NCBI RefSeq assembly: GCF_007747215.1
Contig: NZ_CP036273.1
Location: 3,456,322 to 3,520,321, forward strand
Direction of reading: 5' to 3'
DNA length: 64,000 nucleotides
Origin: Urbifossiella limnaea
GTDB taxonomy: Bacteria; Planctomycetota; Planctomycetia; Gemmatales; Gemmataceae
Part shown: positions 22,479 through 64,000 of the stretch, in pieces
How the letters are laid out: each line of letters opens with the position of its first letter
Position numbering within the stretch: position 1 is the stretch's first letter
Position numbers and translations under genes: made by a program
Notes under the pieces: model-generated
The model's database searches: none
What the model was told of the DNA's origin: nothing
Seen by the model: only the letters and a program-made list of their open reading frames with translations

Positions 22479-22508
22479 AGAGCCCGAGGACGGCCGTCCC
22501 CGGGCTCT
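22479..22508 (-). terminator. Hairpin downstream of the three-gene ATPase block
   Basis: A 30-base inverted repeat (AGAGCCCGAGGACG paired with CGTCCCCGGGCTCT) lies 41 bases beyond the stop of the ATPase gene. On the minus-strand RNA the single mismatch becomes a G-U pair, so the fold suits that strand. There is no T-run. The core GGACGGCCGTCCCCGGGCT recurs at 40505-40534. Confidence 0.6.
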
Positions 22509-22549: not shown

Positions 22550-24868
22550 TCAGCCGACCACCGGCATGCACACCTGCTCCAGCAGCTTCTCGCACCGCTC
22601 CTGGATCACGTCGGCGAGGTTCGGTAGCGGCGCCCCGTCCGGCAGCGCCTCGCGGACCGCGGCGATCCACCGCGGGAAGCTGTACACCTGGGCCAGCCCG
22701 TCGAGCGCCGCCGGCTCCAGCCGGGCGTGCTTGCCCGCCCGCTCGGCCTCGGCCCACAGCGACTTGCTCTTTCCGGTCATGCCCAGGTCGTCCTCGGGCC
22801 GCAGCAGGATGAGGTGATCGACGACCGTCGGGCGGGTGTCCATCGCGCCGAGCTTCACCTCTAAATCCTTCGGCTTGCCGGCCCCGCGCGACAGGAACAG
22901 GCCGACGCCCACCTTCCACGGCTGGCCGTCCTTGCAGGCCCAGTGTGCAAGCGTGACCATGCCGTACGTCGGGTGGTCGCCGAAGCTCCACTCGGGTACG
23001 ACGTGCTGGAGCCGCCACGGGCCGACCTTTACGCCGTGCTCGTGGCACGCCGCCAGGAACGCCCCCAGCCCCGCCTGCAACTCGCGCGTCGCGCCGGTCA
23101 GGGCGCCGTCCGGTTCGAGCTTCCGCCGGGCCGCCCGCTGCTCCTGATCCCACAACTCGAGTAGAGCCGCGTGCGACAGGATGGACGACCGTGCCGGCGG
23201 CTCGACGATCGGGGCCGATTCGACCACGACGGGGACGGCCGGCTCCGGCGGCGGCAGCGCGGCCACCGGATCGGCGGGGACGTGGATGATGTCCACGGCA
23301 CCGACGCGGTAGTCGTCGTCGTCGTGCCCGAGGAGCTGGGCCAGCCGGTTGAGCGTGCCACGGTCGAGGCCGCCGTACGAGAGCGGGGCCGGCGCTGCGA
23401 GCGCCGGCGGCTCCGCGGCGGGAAGGCGGGTCACCGGCGTTACCGGCTCGTCGTACAGCTGCGAGACGCCGTTCGCGCGTGCGCCGCGCGGCCCGGTCTG
23501 CATGTCGTCCGGGCCGTACACCACGTGATCGAACAGGTGGCGGAACTGCTGTAGCATGTCGCGCAACGTCGGCTCGGTGGCCGCCACGCGGGCGATCTCC
23601 TCTTCCGCGAACGGCGTCACGTCCGAGTCCGCTTCGCCCTCCGGGAGCTCGTCCAGCACCGGCCGCAACCTCGCTTCGACGACGCGCCGCACGAGCCCGC
23701 CGTCCGGCGCTTCCAGGCGAATGGCCTTCACCGTGCCGTGCTTCGGGACGTGCACCGGGTTGTTGAGCCGGTCCTGAATGTAGCCGTCGAGGCTGGGGAC
23801 GAAGCGGTTCCACAGGCCGCGCTCGGCGAAGACCAGAAACAACAGCCCGTCCACCTGGTGCATCACCTGCACGATGCCGGCGAAGAACGCTTCCGCGGTC
23901 TTGTGGGCGTCGTCGCTCCGGCGTGCGAGGAGCAGGTCCTCGAGCTGGTCGAACGCGACCACGACCGGCGTCTTGAGGCTGCGGAACAGCTCGGCCAGCA
24001 CCTTGAACAACGCCAGAACCAAATCCTGCCGCGTGGGCCGGACCTGGAAGTCGAGTTCGGCGAATCCGTAGGTCAGGAAGTTCGCCAGCTCGGCCTCGTC
24101 TTTCAGGAGCGTGGCCTTGGCGAACCCGGTGAGGATGTGCCGCCGCATCAACCCGGCGGTGTTGTGCGCCTCGGTGCGGCCGGCGTGTGCGGCCAGCAGG
24201 TCAAAGGCACGCTGTGGCGTCAGCCCGGCGTCAGCCAACGCCTGAGGCAGCGGCGTCGGCATCCGCGCGAAGTTGGAGTAGCCACTGAGGTTCTCGGCGA
24301 GCCACTCCGAGCGTTCCTGCGCCTGCTGCCCTCCGAGCCCGAGCCGCCGCGCCCACCGGCCCAGGCCCGGCGGCGGGAACAGTTCCACCTTGTCGGCCGG
24401 GCTCAGGTCGCGAAGCGCGACCCCGAGCTGCCGGCGGACGAGGTTCTCGCCCACCTGGTCGAGCGGCCGCACGCCCTTCTGCTTCCCGCCGCCGAGGAGC
24501 GTGTCGATGATCTGGAACAGCAGGTATTCGAGGAAGTCGGTGTCCTTCTGGTACACGCCCGGGGTGACGAGCAGCTGCCACGCCCCGCCGACGCCGTGCT
24601 TGATGCTGTGGAGGAGGTGCGTCTTCCCGGCGCCCTTGTTGCCCAGCACCGGCACCACCTCGGAGTGGGCGGTGGGGTCGTAGCGGTACAGGTCGATGAT
24701 CGCGTGGAGCAGGTCGCGCTCGGGGGCGAACAGCTCGGGGACGTGGTAGCGGGCACAGACCTCGTCGTCCGGGTTGCGGGCGAAGTAGTTGCGGAACGGG
24801 TTGCCGGCCCGTTTCAACACGTCCCGGGCGCGGTCGGTGAGCGGGCGGTCGGCGGCGGCGGTCGTCAT
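22550..24868 (-). CDS. AAA-like P-loop ATPase with large unknown C-terminal region
   Basis: 772 residues from the ATG giving MTTAAADRPLTDRARD. Walker A is VLGNKGAGKTHLLHS near residues 73-87, and Walker B is TPVVVAFDQLEDLL near 297-310, followed by a possible sensor stretch LLFLVFAERGLW. This fits an AAA/STAND-like ATPase, close in style to DnaA/Orc/BrxC-type loaders, but no family is certain. After ~535 comes a Pro/Ala-rich linker, then a C-terminal domain (~620-770) with WKVGVGLFLSRG, PKDLEVKLGAM and VDHLILLRPEDDL. The D-x-EVK string could be nuclease-like, which is speculation. It starts 17 bases after the 239-residue gene, so they form an operon. Confidence 0.7.
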   Translation of the reverse strand: MTTAAADRPLTDRARDVLKRAGNPFRNYFARNPDDEVCARYHVPELFAPERDLLHAIIDLYRYDPTAHSEVVPVLGNKGAGKTHLLHSIKHGVGGAWQLLVTPGVYQKDTDFLEYLLFQIIDTLLGGGKQKGVRPLDQVGENLVRRQLGVALRDLSPADKVELFPPPGLGRWARRLGLGGQQAQERSEWLAENLSGYSNFARMPTPLPQALADAGLTPQRAFDLLAAHAGRTEAHNTAGLMRRHILTGFAKATLLKDEAELANFLTYGFAELDFQVRPTRQDLVLALFKVLAELFRSLKTPVVVAFDQLEDLLLARRSDDAHKTAEAFFAGIVQVMHQVDGLLFLVFAERGLWNRFVPSLDGYIQDRLNNPVHVPKHGTVKAIRLEAPDGGLVRRVVEARLRPVLDELPEGEADSDVTPFAEEEIARVAATEPTLRDMLQQFRHLFDHVVYGPDDMQTGPRGARANGVSQLYDEPVTPVTRLPAAEPPALAAPAPLSYGGLDRGTLNRLAQLLGHDDDDYRVGAVDIIHVPADPVAALPPPEPAVPVVVESAPIVEPPARSSILSHAALLELWDQEQRAARRKLEPDGALTGATRELQAGLGAFLAACHEHGVKVGPWRLQHVVPEWSFGDHPTYGMVTLAHWACKDGQPWKVGVGLFLSRGAGKPKDLEVKLGAMDTRPTVVDHLILLRPEDDLGMTGKSKSLWAEAERAGKHARLEPAALDGLAQVYSFPRWIAAVREALPDGAPLPNLADVIQERCEKLLEQVCMPVVG

Positions 24869-24885
24869 CCGGTTCCCTCCGGGGG

Positions 24886-25605
24886 TCAGACGGCGGCCGC
24901 GAGCCGGTCGGCCCGGCGCGACACCGTGTCCGTGCGGATCGAGGCGTAATACGCGATCCCGTGGCCGACGAGCAAGGCGAACGCCGGCTCGGGCAGGGCG
25001 TACAACGGGCCGGTCCACGGGTGGAGGTACACGGCCCCGCGGTCGTGCAGCGTACGGAGGGCGTCGTGGAAGGCGCCGACGCTCGGGGCGGCGCACCGCC
25101 GGTACAGATCGGGAAGGGGGCAGTCCTCGCCGGCAGTCGCGGCCCAGTCCGCAAGTTTCGCCAGAAGCACGTCCGCCAGATCGGTCGGCGGTGCGCCGGC
25201 TGTTTCAGACGCGACGCGGTTAGTCGTCACTTTCGGGAGCACGCGCGAAACCGCATCGCGCAGCCCGAAGAGGCTGTCGGCCATGCGGCGGGCCGCGGTG
25301 AGGAGGTCGTTCACCTCGGTCTGTCGGGCTTCGAGGACGCGGACGAAGTCTTCGAGCACCTGCTTCGGGTTCGCGGCCGCGAGCAGGTACGCCCACCCGG
25401 CGTCGGTGAGCGTGTAAAGCTTCTGACGGGCGTCGGTCGCCTTGAGGAGGCCGTCGGCCACGGCCTTCTGTGCCGCGGTCTTCCCGGCGGGGACGGCCGG
25501 GAACAACCCGGGCTCGGCCTTCGTCGCGACGAGCGCCACGCCGGCCGGCTCGGCCGCGGCACGGCTGAGTGCGTCGATGACGTGGTACGTGAGTTTGTCG
25601 GCCAC
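24886..25605 (-). CDS. Unknown protein, possible winged-helix
   Basis: About 239 residues from a GTG start giving VADKLTYHVIDALSRAA; the frame is open 20 codons upstream but that stretch looks non-coding. Residues ~35-75 (AAQKAVADGLLKATDARQKL with YTLTDAGWAYLL) read like the recognition helix and wing of a winged-helix domain. A helical, possibly coiled-coil stretch follows (VLEDFVRVLEARQTEVNDLL). A second winged-helix-like region (~165-215, LPDLYRRCAAPSVGAFHDAL) is possible. No enzyme motif. It sits between the 179-residue and the ATPase genes and probably works with the ATPase, perhaps as a DNA-binding partner (inference). Confidence 0.6.
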   Translation of the reverse strand: MADKLTYHVIDALSRAAAEPAGVALVATKAEPGLFPAVPAGKTAAQKAVADGLLKATDARQKLYTLTDAGWAYLLAAANPKQVLEDFVRVLEARQTEVNDLLTAARRMADSLFGLRDAVSRVLPKVTTNRVASETAGAPPTDLADVLLAKLADWAATAGEDCPLPDLYRRCAAPSVGAFHDALRTLHDRGAVYLHPWTGPLYALPEPAFALLVGHGIAYYASIRTDTVSRRADRLAAAV

Positions 25606-25675
25606 GGTCCGCTTCCGTGCGGGATTCGGGCCGGCATGGTACGCCAGCCCGCCCCGCCCGTGCAACCCCGGGCTT

Positions 25676-26215
25676 TTACCCGATCAGCGGCGTGCCCGGC
25701 GGCAGGTCCGGCCGGCGTTCCTCCCACTCGCGGCGCACCTCGCGCAACCCGACGGCACACACCTCGAACTGCTCGCTCAGCCGGCGGAACAAGTCGGCCT
25801 GGCCGGGGGCGCGGTCGGCGGCGATGCGGCTCGTCAGCAGGTAGCCGCGCTTCCCCTGGGCGGTGTAGTCCACGAGCGCGTCGCGGGGGCCGCGGGCGCG
25901 GCCGCGGTTCAGCGCCTCGGGGTAGACCCCCGTCCAGAACAGGGCGAAGTCGCCGACGTGGCGGTAGAACTCGCCCTGCGTCCGGCCGGCGGGCAGTTGG
26001 TCCGCCTCCAGCACCATGCCGACCAACTCGGTGAGCGGTCGGCCGTCGGAGCCGGGCAGGCGGTGGACGGCGTCGCAGTGGACGAACCGCGACAGGAGAG
26101 ACGACAGGTAATCGGTCAGGGGCGGGTCGGCGACGCCGAGGTGGGAGAAGAAGGCGTGCTCGGTCAGCCCGGCGAACAGCCGCCGGAGCGGGTGTTCCGC
26201 GGGAGGATCCCACAT
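25676..26215 (-). CDS. Unknown 179-residue protein
   Basis: Not recognised. The chain is mostly helical and soluble with no signal peptide (MWDPPAEHPLRRLFAGLTEH). Notable stretches are LTDYLSSLLSRFVHCDAVHR and EFYRHVGDFALFWTGVYPEAL. It is the first gene of a three-gene minus-strand block, 70 bases ahead of the GTG-started gene. The strict order with a putative winged-helix protein and an ATPase suggests a common function. Confidence 0.6.
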   Translation of the reverse strand: MWDPPAEHPLRRLFAGLTEHAFFSHLGVADPPLTDYLSSLLSRFVHCDAVHRLPGSDGRPLTELVGMVLEADQLPAGRTQGEFYRHVGDFALFWTGVYPEALNRGRARGPRDALVDYTAQGKRGYLLTSRIAADRAPGQADLFRRLSEQFEVCAVGLREVRREWEERRPDLPPGTPLIG

Positions 26216-55130: not shown

Positions 55131-56449
55131 ATGTCAGGACGACCGACGGCGGCCCAGGTGCGGGCCTGGGCGGACGAGGTGACGGCGGTCGGCGACCGGA
55201 TCGGCCGGCACTTCGCCCGGTCCGAGCCCCGCGCCCGGGCCGTCGGGTACATCCGCGGGCTGCTGGGCGACGCCGACCGGAAGAACGGGTGGCAACTCGC
55301 CGAGGCGCTCGGCGACCCGACCCCGGACGGGGTCCAGCACCTGCTCGCCCGGGCCGACTGGGACGCCGACGCCGTCCGCGACGACCTCATGGGGTACGTC
55401 CACGAGCACCTCGGCGACCCGGCCGCGGTTCTGGTCGTGGACGAGACCGGGTTCCTGAAGAAGGGGACCAAGTCGTGCGGGGTGGCCCGCCAGTACACCG
55501 GCACCGCCGGGCGGATCGAGAACGCCCAGGTCGGGGTCTTCCTGGCGTACGCGGGGCCGAAGGGGCACGCCCTGATCGACCGGGCGTTGTACCTGCCGAA
55601 GGAGTGGACGGACGACCGGCCGCGGTGTGACGCGGCCGGGGTGCCGGCGGCCGTCGGGTTCGCCACCAAGCCGCGGCTGGCCGAGCGGATGCTGGCGCGG
55701 GCGTGGGCGCGGGGGGTGACGGCCGGGTGGGTGACGGGGGACACGGTGTACGGGCACGACGGGGCGTTCCGCCGGTTCCTGGAGGGGCACCGGCAGGCGT
55801 ACCTGCTGGCGGTCCCGGCCAACCAGCCGCTGTTCGACGGGGAGCAGCGCTCGACCGTGAAGGCCGTCGCCGAGGGGTTCCCGGTTGCCGCGTGGGAGCA
55901 GGCCAGTGCGGGGGACGGGTCGAAGGGGCCGCGGGAGTACGACTGGGCGGTCCGGGCGTTCGGCCCGGTGGACGAGCGGGGGTGGCAGTTGTGGCTGGTG
56001 GTCCGGCGGCACCGGGACCGGCCGGACGAGCGGGCCTACTACTTCGCCCGCGGGCCGGCGGCGACGGCCCCGGCCGAGCTCGTCCGCGTGGCGGGGAGCC
56101 GGTGGCGGGTGGAGGAGTGCCTGGAACTGGCGAAGGGCGACTGCGGCCTCGACGAGTACGAGGTGCGGTCGTGGGTCGGGTGGCACCGACACGTCACCCT
56201 GAGCCTGCTCGCCCTGGCGGTGGTGGCGGCGATCCGGGTGGCGGCCGGGCCGTCGGGTCGGCCGAAAAAGGGGGCGCGGGGCTGGTCCGGGTGAGCGTCC
56301 CGGAGGTGCGGAGGCTGCTGCTCCGACTCGTGTGGGCGGTGGTGCCGGACGCCGAGAAGGTGTTGGCCTGGTCAGCGTGGCGGCGGGCGCACCAGCACCG
56401 CGCCCGCTGCTACCACTACCGGAAGCGGGGGGCCAAGCCGCCCGACTGA
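55131..56449 (+). CDS. IS701-family transposase, copy 1 (probably -1 frameshifted)
   Basis: The zero frame runs from ATG 55131 (MSGRPTAAQVRAW) to TGA at 56294. DDE motifs are visible: VLVVDETGFLKKG near 103, VTGDTVYGHDGAF near 204 and WRVEECLELAKGDCGLDEYE near 327-346. Typical family members extend about 50 residues further, and that tail (VSVPEVRRLLLRLVW to RKRGAKPPD) is present in the -1 frame ending at 56449. The crossing point is likely GAAAAAG at 56264-56270. Whether it is programmed slippage or a fixed defect is unknown. A start at 55113 is also open. Confidence 0.85.
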
Positions 56450-56471: not shown

Positions 56472-57865
56472 TCCTACAGCCGTAGTTGCTACAACAGCCC
56501 TCGCCAGGACTTGTGGCGAGGGTGGGCGATGTCAGGACGACCGACGGCGGCCCAGGTGCGGGCCTGGGCGGACGAGGTGACGGCGGTCGGCGACCGGATC
56601 GGCCGGCACTTCGCCCGGTCCGAGCCCCGCGCCCGGGCCGTCGGGTACATCCGCGGGCTGCTGGGCGACGCCGACCGGAAGAACGGGTGGCAACTCGCCG
56701 AGGCGCTCGGCGACCCGACCCCGGACGGGGTCCAGCACCTGCTCGCCCGGGCCGACTGGGACGCCGACGCCGTCCGCGACGACCTCATGGGGTACGTCCA
56801 CGAGCACCTCGGCGACCCGGCCGCGGTTCTGGTCGTGGACGAGACCGGGTTCCTGAAGAAGGGGACCAAGTCGTGCGGGGTGGCCCGCCAGTACACCGGC
56901 ACCGCCGGGCGGATCGAGAACGCCCAGGTCGGGGTCTTCCTGGCGTACGCGGGGCCGAAGGGGCACGCCCTGATCGACCGGGCGTTGTACCTGCCGAAGG
57001 AGTGGACGGACGACCGGCCGCGGTGTGACGCGGCCGGGGTGCCGGCGGCCGTCGGGTTCGCCACCAAGCCGCGGCTGGCCGAGCGGATGCTGGCGCGGGC
57101 GTGGGCGCGGGGGGTGACGGCCGGGTGGGTGACGGGGGACACGGTGTACGGGCACGACGGGGCGTTCCGCCGGTTCCTGGAGGGGCACCGGCAGGCGTAC
57201 CTGCTGGCGGTCCCGGCCAACCAGCCGCTGTTCGACGGGGAGCAGCGCTCGACCGTGAAGGCCGTCGCCGAGGGGTTCCCGGTTGCCGCGTGGGAGCGGG
57301 CCAGTGCGGGGGACGGGTCGAAGGGGCCGCGGGAGTACGACTGGGCGGTCCGGGCGTTCGGCCCGGTGGACGAGCGGGGGTGGCAGTTGTGGCTGGTGGT
57401 CCGGCGGCACCGGGACCGGCCGGACGAGCGGGCCTACTACTTCGCCCGCGGGCCGGCGGCGACGGCCCCGGCCGAGCTCGTCCGCGTGGCGGGGAGCCGG
57501 TGGCGGGTGGAGGAGTGCCTGGAACTGGCGAAGGGCGACTGCGGCCTCGACGAGTACGAGGTGCGGTCGTGGGTCGGGTGGCACCGACACGTCACCCTGA
57601 GCCTGCTCGCCCTGGCGGTGGTGGCGGCGATCCGGGTGGCGGCCGGGCCGTCGGGTCGGCCGAAAAAGGGGGCGCGGGGCTGGTCCGGGTGAGCGTCCCG
57701 GAGGTGCGGAGGCTGCTGCTCCGACTCGTGTGGGCGGTGGTGCCGGACGCCGAGAAGGTGTTGGCCTGGTCAGCGTGGCGGCGGGCGCACCAGCACCGCG
57801 CCCGCTGCTACCACTACCGGAAGCGGGGGGCCAAGCCGCCCGACTGACCAACTACGGCTGTAGGA
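56472..57865 (+). mobile_element. IS701-family insertion sequence, copy 2 (tandem)
   Basis: 1394 bp, same orientation as copy 1, separated from it by one CTAG and followed by CTAG at 57866-57869. The one difference found from copy 1 is A at 55900 versus G at 57298. The second CTAG is split by the IS630 insertion. Confidence 0.93.
56529..57847 (+). CDS. IS701-family transposase, copy 2 (probably -1 frameshifted)
   Basis: Same protein as copy 1 except Gln to Arg (WEQASAGDG becomes WERASAGDG). The zero frame stops at 57692; the C-terminal tail continues in the -1 frame to 57847 after GAAAAAG at 57662-57668. Because both copies share the frame break, it predates their duplication. The RBS-occluding hairpin at 56498-56522 is also conserved. 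DDE residues are intact, so the copy could be active if frameshifting occurs. Confidence 0.85.
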
Positions 57866-63705: not shown

Positions 63706-64000
63706 CGTTCCGGTTCGTCGCCGACCACGCCGCCGAGTGGCCGGTCGGGTGGATGTGCGACGCCCTGGAGGTGTCGGCCAGCGGGTACTACGCCTGGGCG
63801 TCACGGGCCGACAGCGCGGCCGAGCAGCGGCGGCGGGAGCTGGTCGCGGCGATCCGGGAGGTCCACGCCGAGGTGAGGGAGCGGTACGGCAGCCCGCGCA
63901 TGACCGCCGAGTTGAACGCCCGGGGTCAGGCGTGCTCGGAGAACACCGTGGCCAAGCTCATGACGGCCCACGAAATCCGGGCGAGAACGCCGCGTCGGTT
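63672..64000 (+). CDS. IS3-family OrfB, N-terminal part
   Basis: Read in the -1 frame after the slippery heptamer. VADHAAEWPVGWMCDALEVS, GYYAWASRADSAAEQRRREL and VRERYGSPRMTAELNARGQA match the HTH_21-containing N-terminus of IS3 transposases. The catalytic domain lies beyond 64000. No good separate start codon is seen, fitting expression as OrfAB. Confidence 0.85.

Follow-up and report, generated by a model that had tools for sequence, protein, structure and literature searches.

The stretch of DNA considered here (the window) comprises 64,000 nucleotides, positions 3,456,322-3,520,321 of the 7.8-Mb genome of the planctomycete Urbifossiella limnaea, which lies on a single contig. Within it, three open reading frames (ORFs) on the minus strand encode an AAA+ ATPase (P0001), a double winged helix-turn-helix (wHTH) protein (P0002) and a third product, termed gene A (P0003); the first two form the gene pair that is the subject of this report. 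The ATPase and wHTH genes are separated by 17 bp and the wHTH gene and gene A by 70 bp, and the ORF coordinates agree in this respect with a preliminary description made from the sequence alone. A self-trained codon model assigns strong coding potential to all three ORFs, and the ratios of nonsynonymous to synonymous substitution rates relative to the nearest relative are low (0.16 for the ATPase, 0.34 for the wHTH gene and 0.18 for gene A), indicating real genes under purifying selection. The strong hairpin that the same description had placed at the end of the block is present (13-bp stem), though it is not scored as an intrinsic terminator because a T-run is missing. The next same-strand gene after the ATPase and this hairpin is folC (TIGR01499, E 1.5e-108), and an RNA family search found no RNA families in the region. 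Coordinates are collected in Table 1.

The conserved unit is a two-gene operon consisting of the double-wHTH gene followed by the ATPase gene. A pattern-based scan of 84,980 species yielded 79 ATPase loci, all but a few records with doubtful titles being named as planctomycetes; many belong to Gemmata, Fimbriiglobus, Limnoglobus or Zavarzinella, and named isolates include Zavarzinella formosa, Limnoglobus roseus and Gemmata sp. The wHTH gene lies immediately upstream of the ATPase gene in 72 of the 76 testable loci (the other three begin at a contig end), as it does wherever testable in the nearest-relatives set, one cut contig excepted. At the four loci without it (L093, L094, L095 and L118), a gene on the opposite strand is too close to leave room. 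Moreover, distances among the wHTH proteins correlate with those among the ATPases (Mantel 0.865, p 0.0001). Gene A stands next to the pair in just two genomes, this one and its congener G001 (locus L074). In the complete genomes G006 and G013 the distance between them is 4.0 and 1.4 Mb, and in the other genomes where both were found they lie on different contigs. It belongs to a family that is conserved across Planctomycetia (42-51% identity outside Gemmatales), is covered by no family model and was found in 47 of the 59 genomes sampled, among them 12 of the 15 from families without the ATPase. Separated from the pair almost everywhere and present in families lacking the ATPase, gene A is an unrelated neighbor and not a partner of the pair.

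A sigma-70-like promoter occupies the gap between gene A and the pair. Its arrangement upstream of the wHTH gene recurs in 53 of 69 loci, compared with a mean of 4.2 and a maximum of 12 in shuffles, an excess that overstates independence since the loci are related by descent. The spacing is kept despite very different sequences (e.g., TTGCAT..TATGAT and TTGCAC..GATAAT). A standard promoter scan missed this element because its hexamers are off consensus. An operator motif upstream of the wHTH gene was considered and rejected, the enriched words being the promoter itself (TTGCA-N16-19-TAnnAT) and Shine-Dalgarno-like sequences.

In the structure model of the wHTH protein (mean predicted local distance difference test [pLDDT] score 91.6), a helix 52 residues long connects two winged-helix domains, bearing out the earlier suggestion of a possible winged-helix protein. 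Structural matches are to generic winged helices (Z about 8-9), folds that resemble many transcription factors. The C-terminal wHTH domain (C-wHTH) is more conserved than the N-terminal one (N-wHTH; 53% versus 40%). A lone double-wHTH paralogue without an ATPase lies beside an apparent tryptophanyl-tRNA synthetase gene in several of the Gemmatales loci inspected. Additionally, the metagenome-assembled genomes (MAGs) of genus g14, in which gene absence is probable rather than certain, show the pair in natural stages of decay: the ATPase persists without the wHTH gene in G158 and G194, and both genes are missing from G018 and G190. In each of these four genomes, the sole remaining wHTH match fits the lone paralogue type.

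In the model of the ATPase (pLDDT 83), the AAA+ region spans residues ~12-455, the linker (456-565) is disordered and the C-terminal domain covers residues 566-770. Mean column identity among its orthologues is 52%, and mean pairwise identity is 65% in the AAA+ core, 66% in the C-terminal domain and 20% in the linker. The Walker A (GNKGAGKT) and Walker B (VVVAFDQLEDLL) motifs and the PKDLEVKLG segment of the C-terminal part are all found as previously claimed, as is the long linker, for which pLDDT is mostly below 50. Within Walker B (FDQLE), the Asp is invariant in 57 orthologues, Gln308 occupies the usual position of the catalytic Glu, and an invariant Glu310 follows two residues further on. 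Comparison of the model with known structures by VIA-align gave a Drosophila ORC/Cdc6 chain as the top match (Z 13.2, root-mean-square deviation [rmsd] 4.2, 241 residues), further matches being Cdc6 (Z 13.1), TnsC (12.6), BrxC (11.8, rmsd 4.6, 271 residues) and RdrA (11.5). The AAA+ fold has a helical lid like that of ORC/Cdc6, whose chains score Z 13.2-12.0 over residues 12-462. The model thus places the ATPase among ORC/Cdc6-type AAA+ proteins, with scores that cannot choose between ORC/Cdc6, TnsC, BrxC and RdrA. No Pfam, NCBIfam, PADLOC or PHROG model scored above cut-off for P0001-P0003, so the label "undescribed" in the preliminary description holds for the wHTH-ATPase pair. The best weak Pfam matches of the ATPase are to AAA_16 and a STAND NTPase, and a sequence search of the PDB returned only P-loop-type or coiled-coil matches.

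The C-terminal domain is a putative inactive restriction endonuclease (REase) fold. In the structure model, its helices and strands are arranged as a-bbb-a-b-a-b-a, in keeping with an REase-like core. Foldseek matched the ATPase model weakly to African swine fever virus RPB5 (probability 0.96-0.97, E 0.14-0.21; aligned region not reported). The N-terminal domain of RPB5 has an REase-like fold, and the match is therefore consistent with such an assignment, as is the cassette homology described below. If the fold is REase-like, the domain would be inactive, as its third strand (WKVGVGL) contains no D/E-x-K.

The distribution of the ATPase follows the order Gemmatales. In the nearest-relatives sample, it is found in 42 of the 44 genomes of its own family and a second Gemmatales family and in 0 of 15 genomes of other families. 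Profile searches of a class-wide draw detected it in 48 of 51 Gemmatales genomes and gave no full-length ATPase in the 147 other genomes of the class, where matches are at best partial and weak. A phylum sample likewise contained no full-length ATPase beyond the U. limnaea genome (partial, weak matches at best), and plasmids and phages gave no match. The ATPase tree comprises 62 rows (59 orthologues and 3 paralogues) and was not rooted with the cassette ATPases discussed below. All 11 tested groups (nine genera with at least two members, the second family and the paralogues) each fall on one side of a branch, and the 10 label changes are the minimum, compared with a shuffled mean of 27.6. Judged by these genus and family labels, the pair is inherited vertically within Gemmatales. 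The patchy distribution near defense genes that had been anticipated for a system of this kind was not found; the pair is often located beside folC or other ordinary genes.

Known systems with comparable parts provide a framework for placing the pair. One class of HerA/FtsK capture systems, the Orc/CDC6-HerA/FtsK type, has a predicted role in defense against invaders (Rakesh, Aravind, Krishnan 2024, PMC10853773); it combines HerA/FtsK and an active REase with a wHTH protein and an Orc/CDC6 AAA+ protein with an inactive REase. BrxC has been assigned to the ORC/Cdc6 clade (PMC12839542). The main texts of both papers do not mention planctomycetes. Elsewhere in the class, ATPases of ~660 aa (L160, L162, L163, L164 and others) adjoin a multi-wHTH protein, and in five cassettes (L160, L164, L265, L266 and L267) a third gene encoding 630-660 aa lies beside these two. 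In the third protein, FtsK makes up the second half (E about 1e-30 with Pfam and up to 4e-46 with the PADLOC model SspH), and a Cas4-like stretch with the sequence GIADAI...CAIELK lies in the first. These five cassettes are patchy in other families of the class and appear to be members of the HerA/FtsK capture type from planctomycetes that have so far gone uncatalogued. By profile comparison (hhalign), the Gemmatales ATPase aligns with the cassette ATPase family over 512 columns, including the C-terminal domain (probability 97.9, E 4e-13), the match stopping at position 543 of 659 in these cousins, ahead of their C-terminal region; it is thus a remote, full-length homologue of the cassette ATPases. 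The DQxE form of Walker B is also shared with them. For the wHTH partners, an intermediate protein (L262, from a pair in a same-family genome) matches both profiles (2e-4 and 1.5e-20).

Further relatives occur as fusions and paralogues. At locus L166, a single protein combines a related ATPase with a HerA-like motor, and a DISARM DrmD-type helicase comes after it (Table 1). In the congener G001, a 1026-aa ORC-type ATPase-FtsK fusion (L261 2968-6048), a distant relative of P0001, lies near an apparent serine recombinase. A paralogous cassette of wHTH protein, ATPase and a third protein of ~200 aa (no Pfam match) occupies island-like loci in a few Gemmatales genomes, with an integrase, primase or DinB nearby in some; this cassette is closer than the pair to the three-gene system that the preliminary description had sought.

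Despite these relationships, the pair differs from each known system. Like the capture systems, it has an ORC/Cdc6-type AAA+ protein, a multi-wHTH partner (a double-wHTH model, adjacent as counted above) and remote full-length homology to a planctomycete cassette of capture layout; the putative inactive REase domain after the AAA+ region would be a further likeness. Unlike them, it has no HerA/FtsK, active REase or C-terminal wHTH on the ATPase, and is fixed in one order instead of being mobile and patchy. No HerA/FtsK translocase is present among the window neighbors or recurs in the 79 loci, no active nuclease was seen recurring beside the pair in these loci, and the ATPase model ends in the linker and an alpha/beta domain closing with short helices, not in a winged helix. 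Because motor, nuclease, C-terminal winged helix and mobility were each looked for and not found, the pair is not a capture system by membership. BrxC (PDB 9zdx, 9zll) shares the ORC/Cdc6-clade AAA+ fold; however, it is ~1200-1300 aa long, comprises wHTH, alpha+beta, wHTH and coiled-coil domains and is encoded beside PglZ and BrxX, and none of these is found at the pair, whose 772-aa ATPase matches no BREX model (PADLOC, E<=1) and has no PglZ or BrxX neighbors. The SspFGH system (PMC8092258) resembles the cousin cassettes in that their third gene is similar to the FtsK part of SspH, whereas P0001-P0003 match no Ssp model (PADLOC) and no phosphorothioation genes were seen nearby. TnsC of Tn7 and the archaeal and eukaryotic ORC/Cdc6 proteins share the AAA+ fold and a likely DNA-loading mode (Z 12.6-13.2), but the pair has no transposase or MCM partner, a different C-terminal domain and a DQxE rather than DE Walker B. 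Similarity to the Sll1717-family P-loop ATPase model of NCBIfam (NF047389) is confined to the region around Walker A, and its 18 bits are far under the curated cut-off of 75 bits. Among the leads previously offered, MksBEF/Wadjet is excluded, as the ATPase is an AAA+ protein without a long coiled coil, not an SMC-type ABC ATPase, and has no PADLOC match. The leads to Orc-like loaders and BREX proved sound at the level of fold, and the ATPase is homologous to those of defense-type cassettes.

Table 1. Features of the wHTH-ATPase locus (window positions) and of related loci (positions preceded by a locus or contig handle).
Feature	Position	Strand	Remarks
ORC/Cdc6-type AAA+ ATPase P0001, 772 aa, ATG start	22550..24868	-	NPF box + AAA+ residues 12-455, linker 456-565, C-terminal alpha/beta domain 566-770
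Walker A GNKGAGKT, residues 76-83	24620..24643	-	G76, G79, G81, K82, T83 invariant in 57 orthologues
Walker B region PVVVAFDQLED, residues 301-311	23936..23968	-	D307, Q308, E310 invariant in 57 orthologues
C-terminal domain, residues 566-770	22559..23173	-	secondary structure H-H-E-E-E-H-E-H-E-H; putative inactive REase-like domain
Double winged-helix protein P0002, 239 aa, GTG start	24886..25605	-	N-wHTH 1-78, 52-residue helix 80-131, C-wHTH 143-224
Sigma-70-like promoter TTGCAC-N18-TACCAT, in 70-bp gap upstream of wHTH gene	25636..25665	-	equivalent in 53/69 loci
Gene A P0003, 179 aa, ATG start	25676..26215	-	chance neighbor outside unit; planctomycete class-wide family
Hairpin, 13-bp stem, 4-nt loop, 3ʹ of ATPase gene, ahead of folC	22479..22508	-	no T-run
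Lone double-wHTH paralogue	L042 7452-8195; L043 5725-6474; L044 4782-5507; L048 7000-7761; own genome C1:3159371-3160087		
Related ATPase fused to HerA-like motor, 1159 aa, then DISARM DrmD-type helicase	L166 7172-14008		PADLOC E 1.6e-197 (DrmD)
Paralogous three-gene cassette	L039 5620-9213 (G000:C1:2374281-2377188); L169 5200-8748; L170 5749-9386; L171 5214-9170		

Elsewhere in the window, two IS701-family transposase ORFs of 387 aa each (55131-56294 and 56529-57692), identical in length, start and coding score, lie ~1.4 kb apart in direct orientation, and more transposase-like ORFs continue to window position 64000.

The identity and distribution of the wHTH-ATPase pair are described here with high confidence. 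Its function is a finely balanced matter: the pair may well be a decoupled, probably domesticated relative of the capture-system core, free of motor and nuclease, that acts as an ATP-dependent DNA-bound switch. It would correspond to the DNA-finding half of a capture system, made up of a wHTH recruiter and an ORC-type ATPase. According to this model, the wHTH protein would bind DNA, probably as a coiled-coil dimer, with the conserved C-wHTH performing a common job that the variable N-wHTH tunes. The DNA-bound wHTH protein would recruit the AAA+ ATPase, which in its ATP state may use its AAA+ and C-terminal domains to build a ring or filament on that DNA and be reset by ATP hydrolysis. Once loaded, the ATPase would mark or license the site so that a partner could act there in trans. 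For the cousin cassettes, this partner would be the linked FtsK-type translocase with its PD-(D/E)XK-like nuclease; in Gemmatales, it would be an unlinked, probably chromosomal, factor. An unlinked SspH-like FtsK was rejected as the general partner in Gemmatales, as nearly all matches cover the FtsK half only and could be the ordinary cell FtsK; a few stronger matches (G001, G002, G017 and G020) lie in long frames of 1010-1124 aa. Fixation and vertical descent across the order argue for a resident chromosomal role, presumably in maintenance rather than mobile defense. As a tentative and rather doubtful extension, a capture-related module may have lost its motor and nuclease in the Gemmatales ancestor (or never had them) and become a chromosomal DNA-handling factor, an ORC-like loader with a wHTH recruiter using the cell's FtsK or replication machinery.

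Several observations weigh against a domesticated chromosomal switch. RecA distances gave no signal when compared with those of the two proteins (Mantel 0.05, p 0.30), leaving vertical inheritance to rest on group labels; the missing signal is not read as transfer because RecA distances hardly vary in this set. For the C-terminal domain, the REase-like assignment draws on strand order, the weak Foldseek match and the cassette homology, not on a confident fold match, and direct profile comparison between the two groups of wHTH proteins is weak (probability 8%). Nor is the pair strictly essential: in genus g14 the wHTH gene has been lost (G158, G194, L093-L095 and L118), and the ATPase is missing in G038, another MAG, as well as in two g14 genomes (G018 and G190). 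Furthermore, the wHTH protein evolves fast, as defense sensors do. The last two points favor the main rival, in which the pair is a core-genome anti-invader system that guards against phage or plasmid DNA, fixed and vertically inherited, and borrows cell FtsK and nucleases in trans. The remote homology to wHTH-ATPase-nuclease/FtsK cassettes, the fused forms beside DISARM DrmD and the paralogous copies on island-like loci point the same way. However, the near-universal, vertical presence of the pair in the order, the strong conservation of the ATPase and the lack of any effector recurring beside it in the 79 loci make this rival rather improbable.

Distinctly less plausible is a transcription-type regulator, in which the wHTH protein would be a MarR/PadR-like DNA-binding factor and the ATPase a STAND-like, signal-dependent co-regulator. 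The transcription factor-like wHTH folds, the weak Pfam matches of the ATPase and a promoter-associated position natural for autoregulation would all suit it, but the wHTH matches are generic, the ATPase has no repeat-rich STAND sensor domain, its closest AAA+ structures are DNA loaders, and its homologues accompany DNA translocases and nucleases. The three-gene defense or chromosome-handling system including gene A, as originally proposed, draws on the way the genes are ordered and spaced here and in G001. It was to stand or fall with co-occurrence of the three genes in other genomes, and the neighborhood survey, which found gene A unlinked in other genomes holding both and common in families without the ATPase, leaves it scarcely credible; moreover, the promoter separates gene A from the pair.

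The pair is a previously unannotated, order-wide unit that can now be placed, whereas capture-type machinery itself had already been described. Replication initiators, transposons and immune systems all contain ORC/Cdc6-type AAA+ proteins, which raises the question of the direction in which these were recruited from one to another. A vertically fixed pair free of motor and nuclease, found beside patchy nuclease-bearing cousins in sister groups, provides a tractable case in which to ask whether it arose by domestication of a conflict module or itself came first as a plain pair. Its passage through almost the whole order suggests that, in Gemmatales, a part related to mobile defense systems has turned into a normal chromosomal gene pair.

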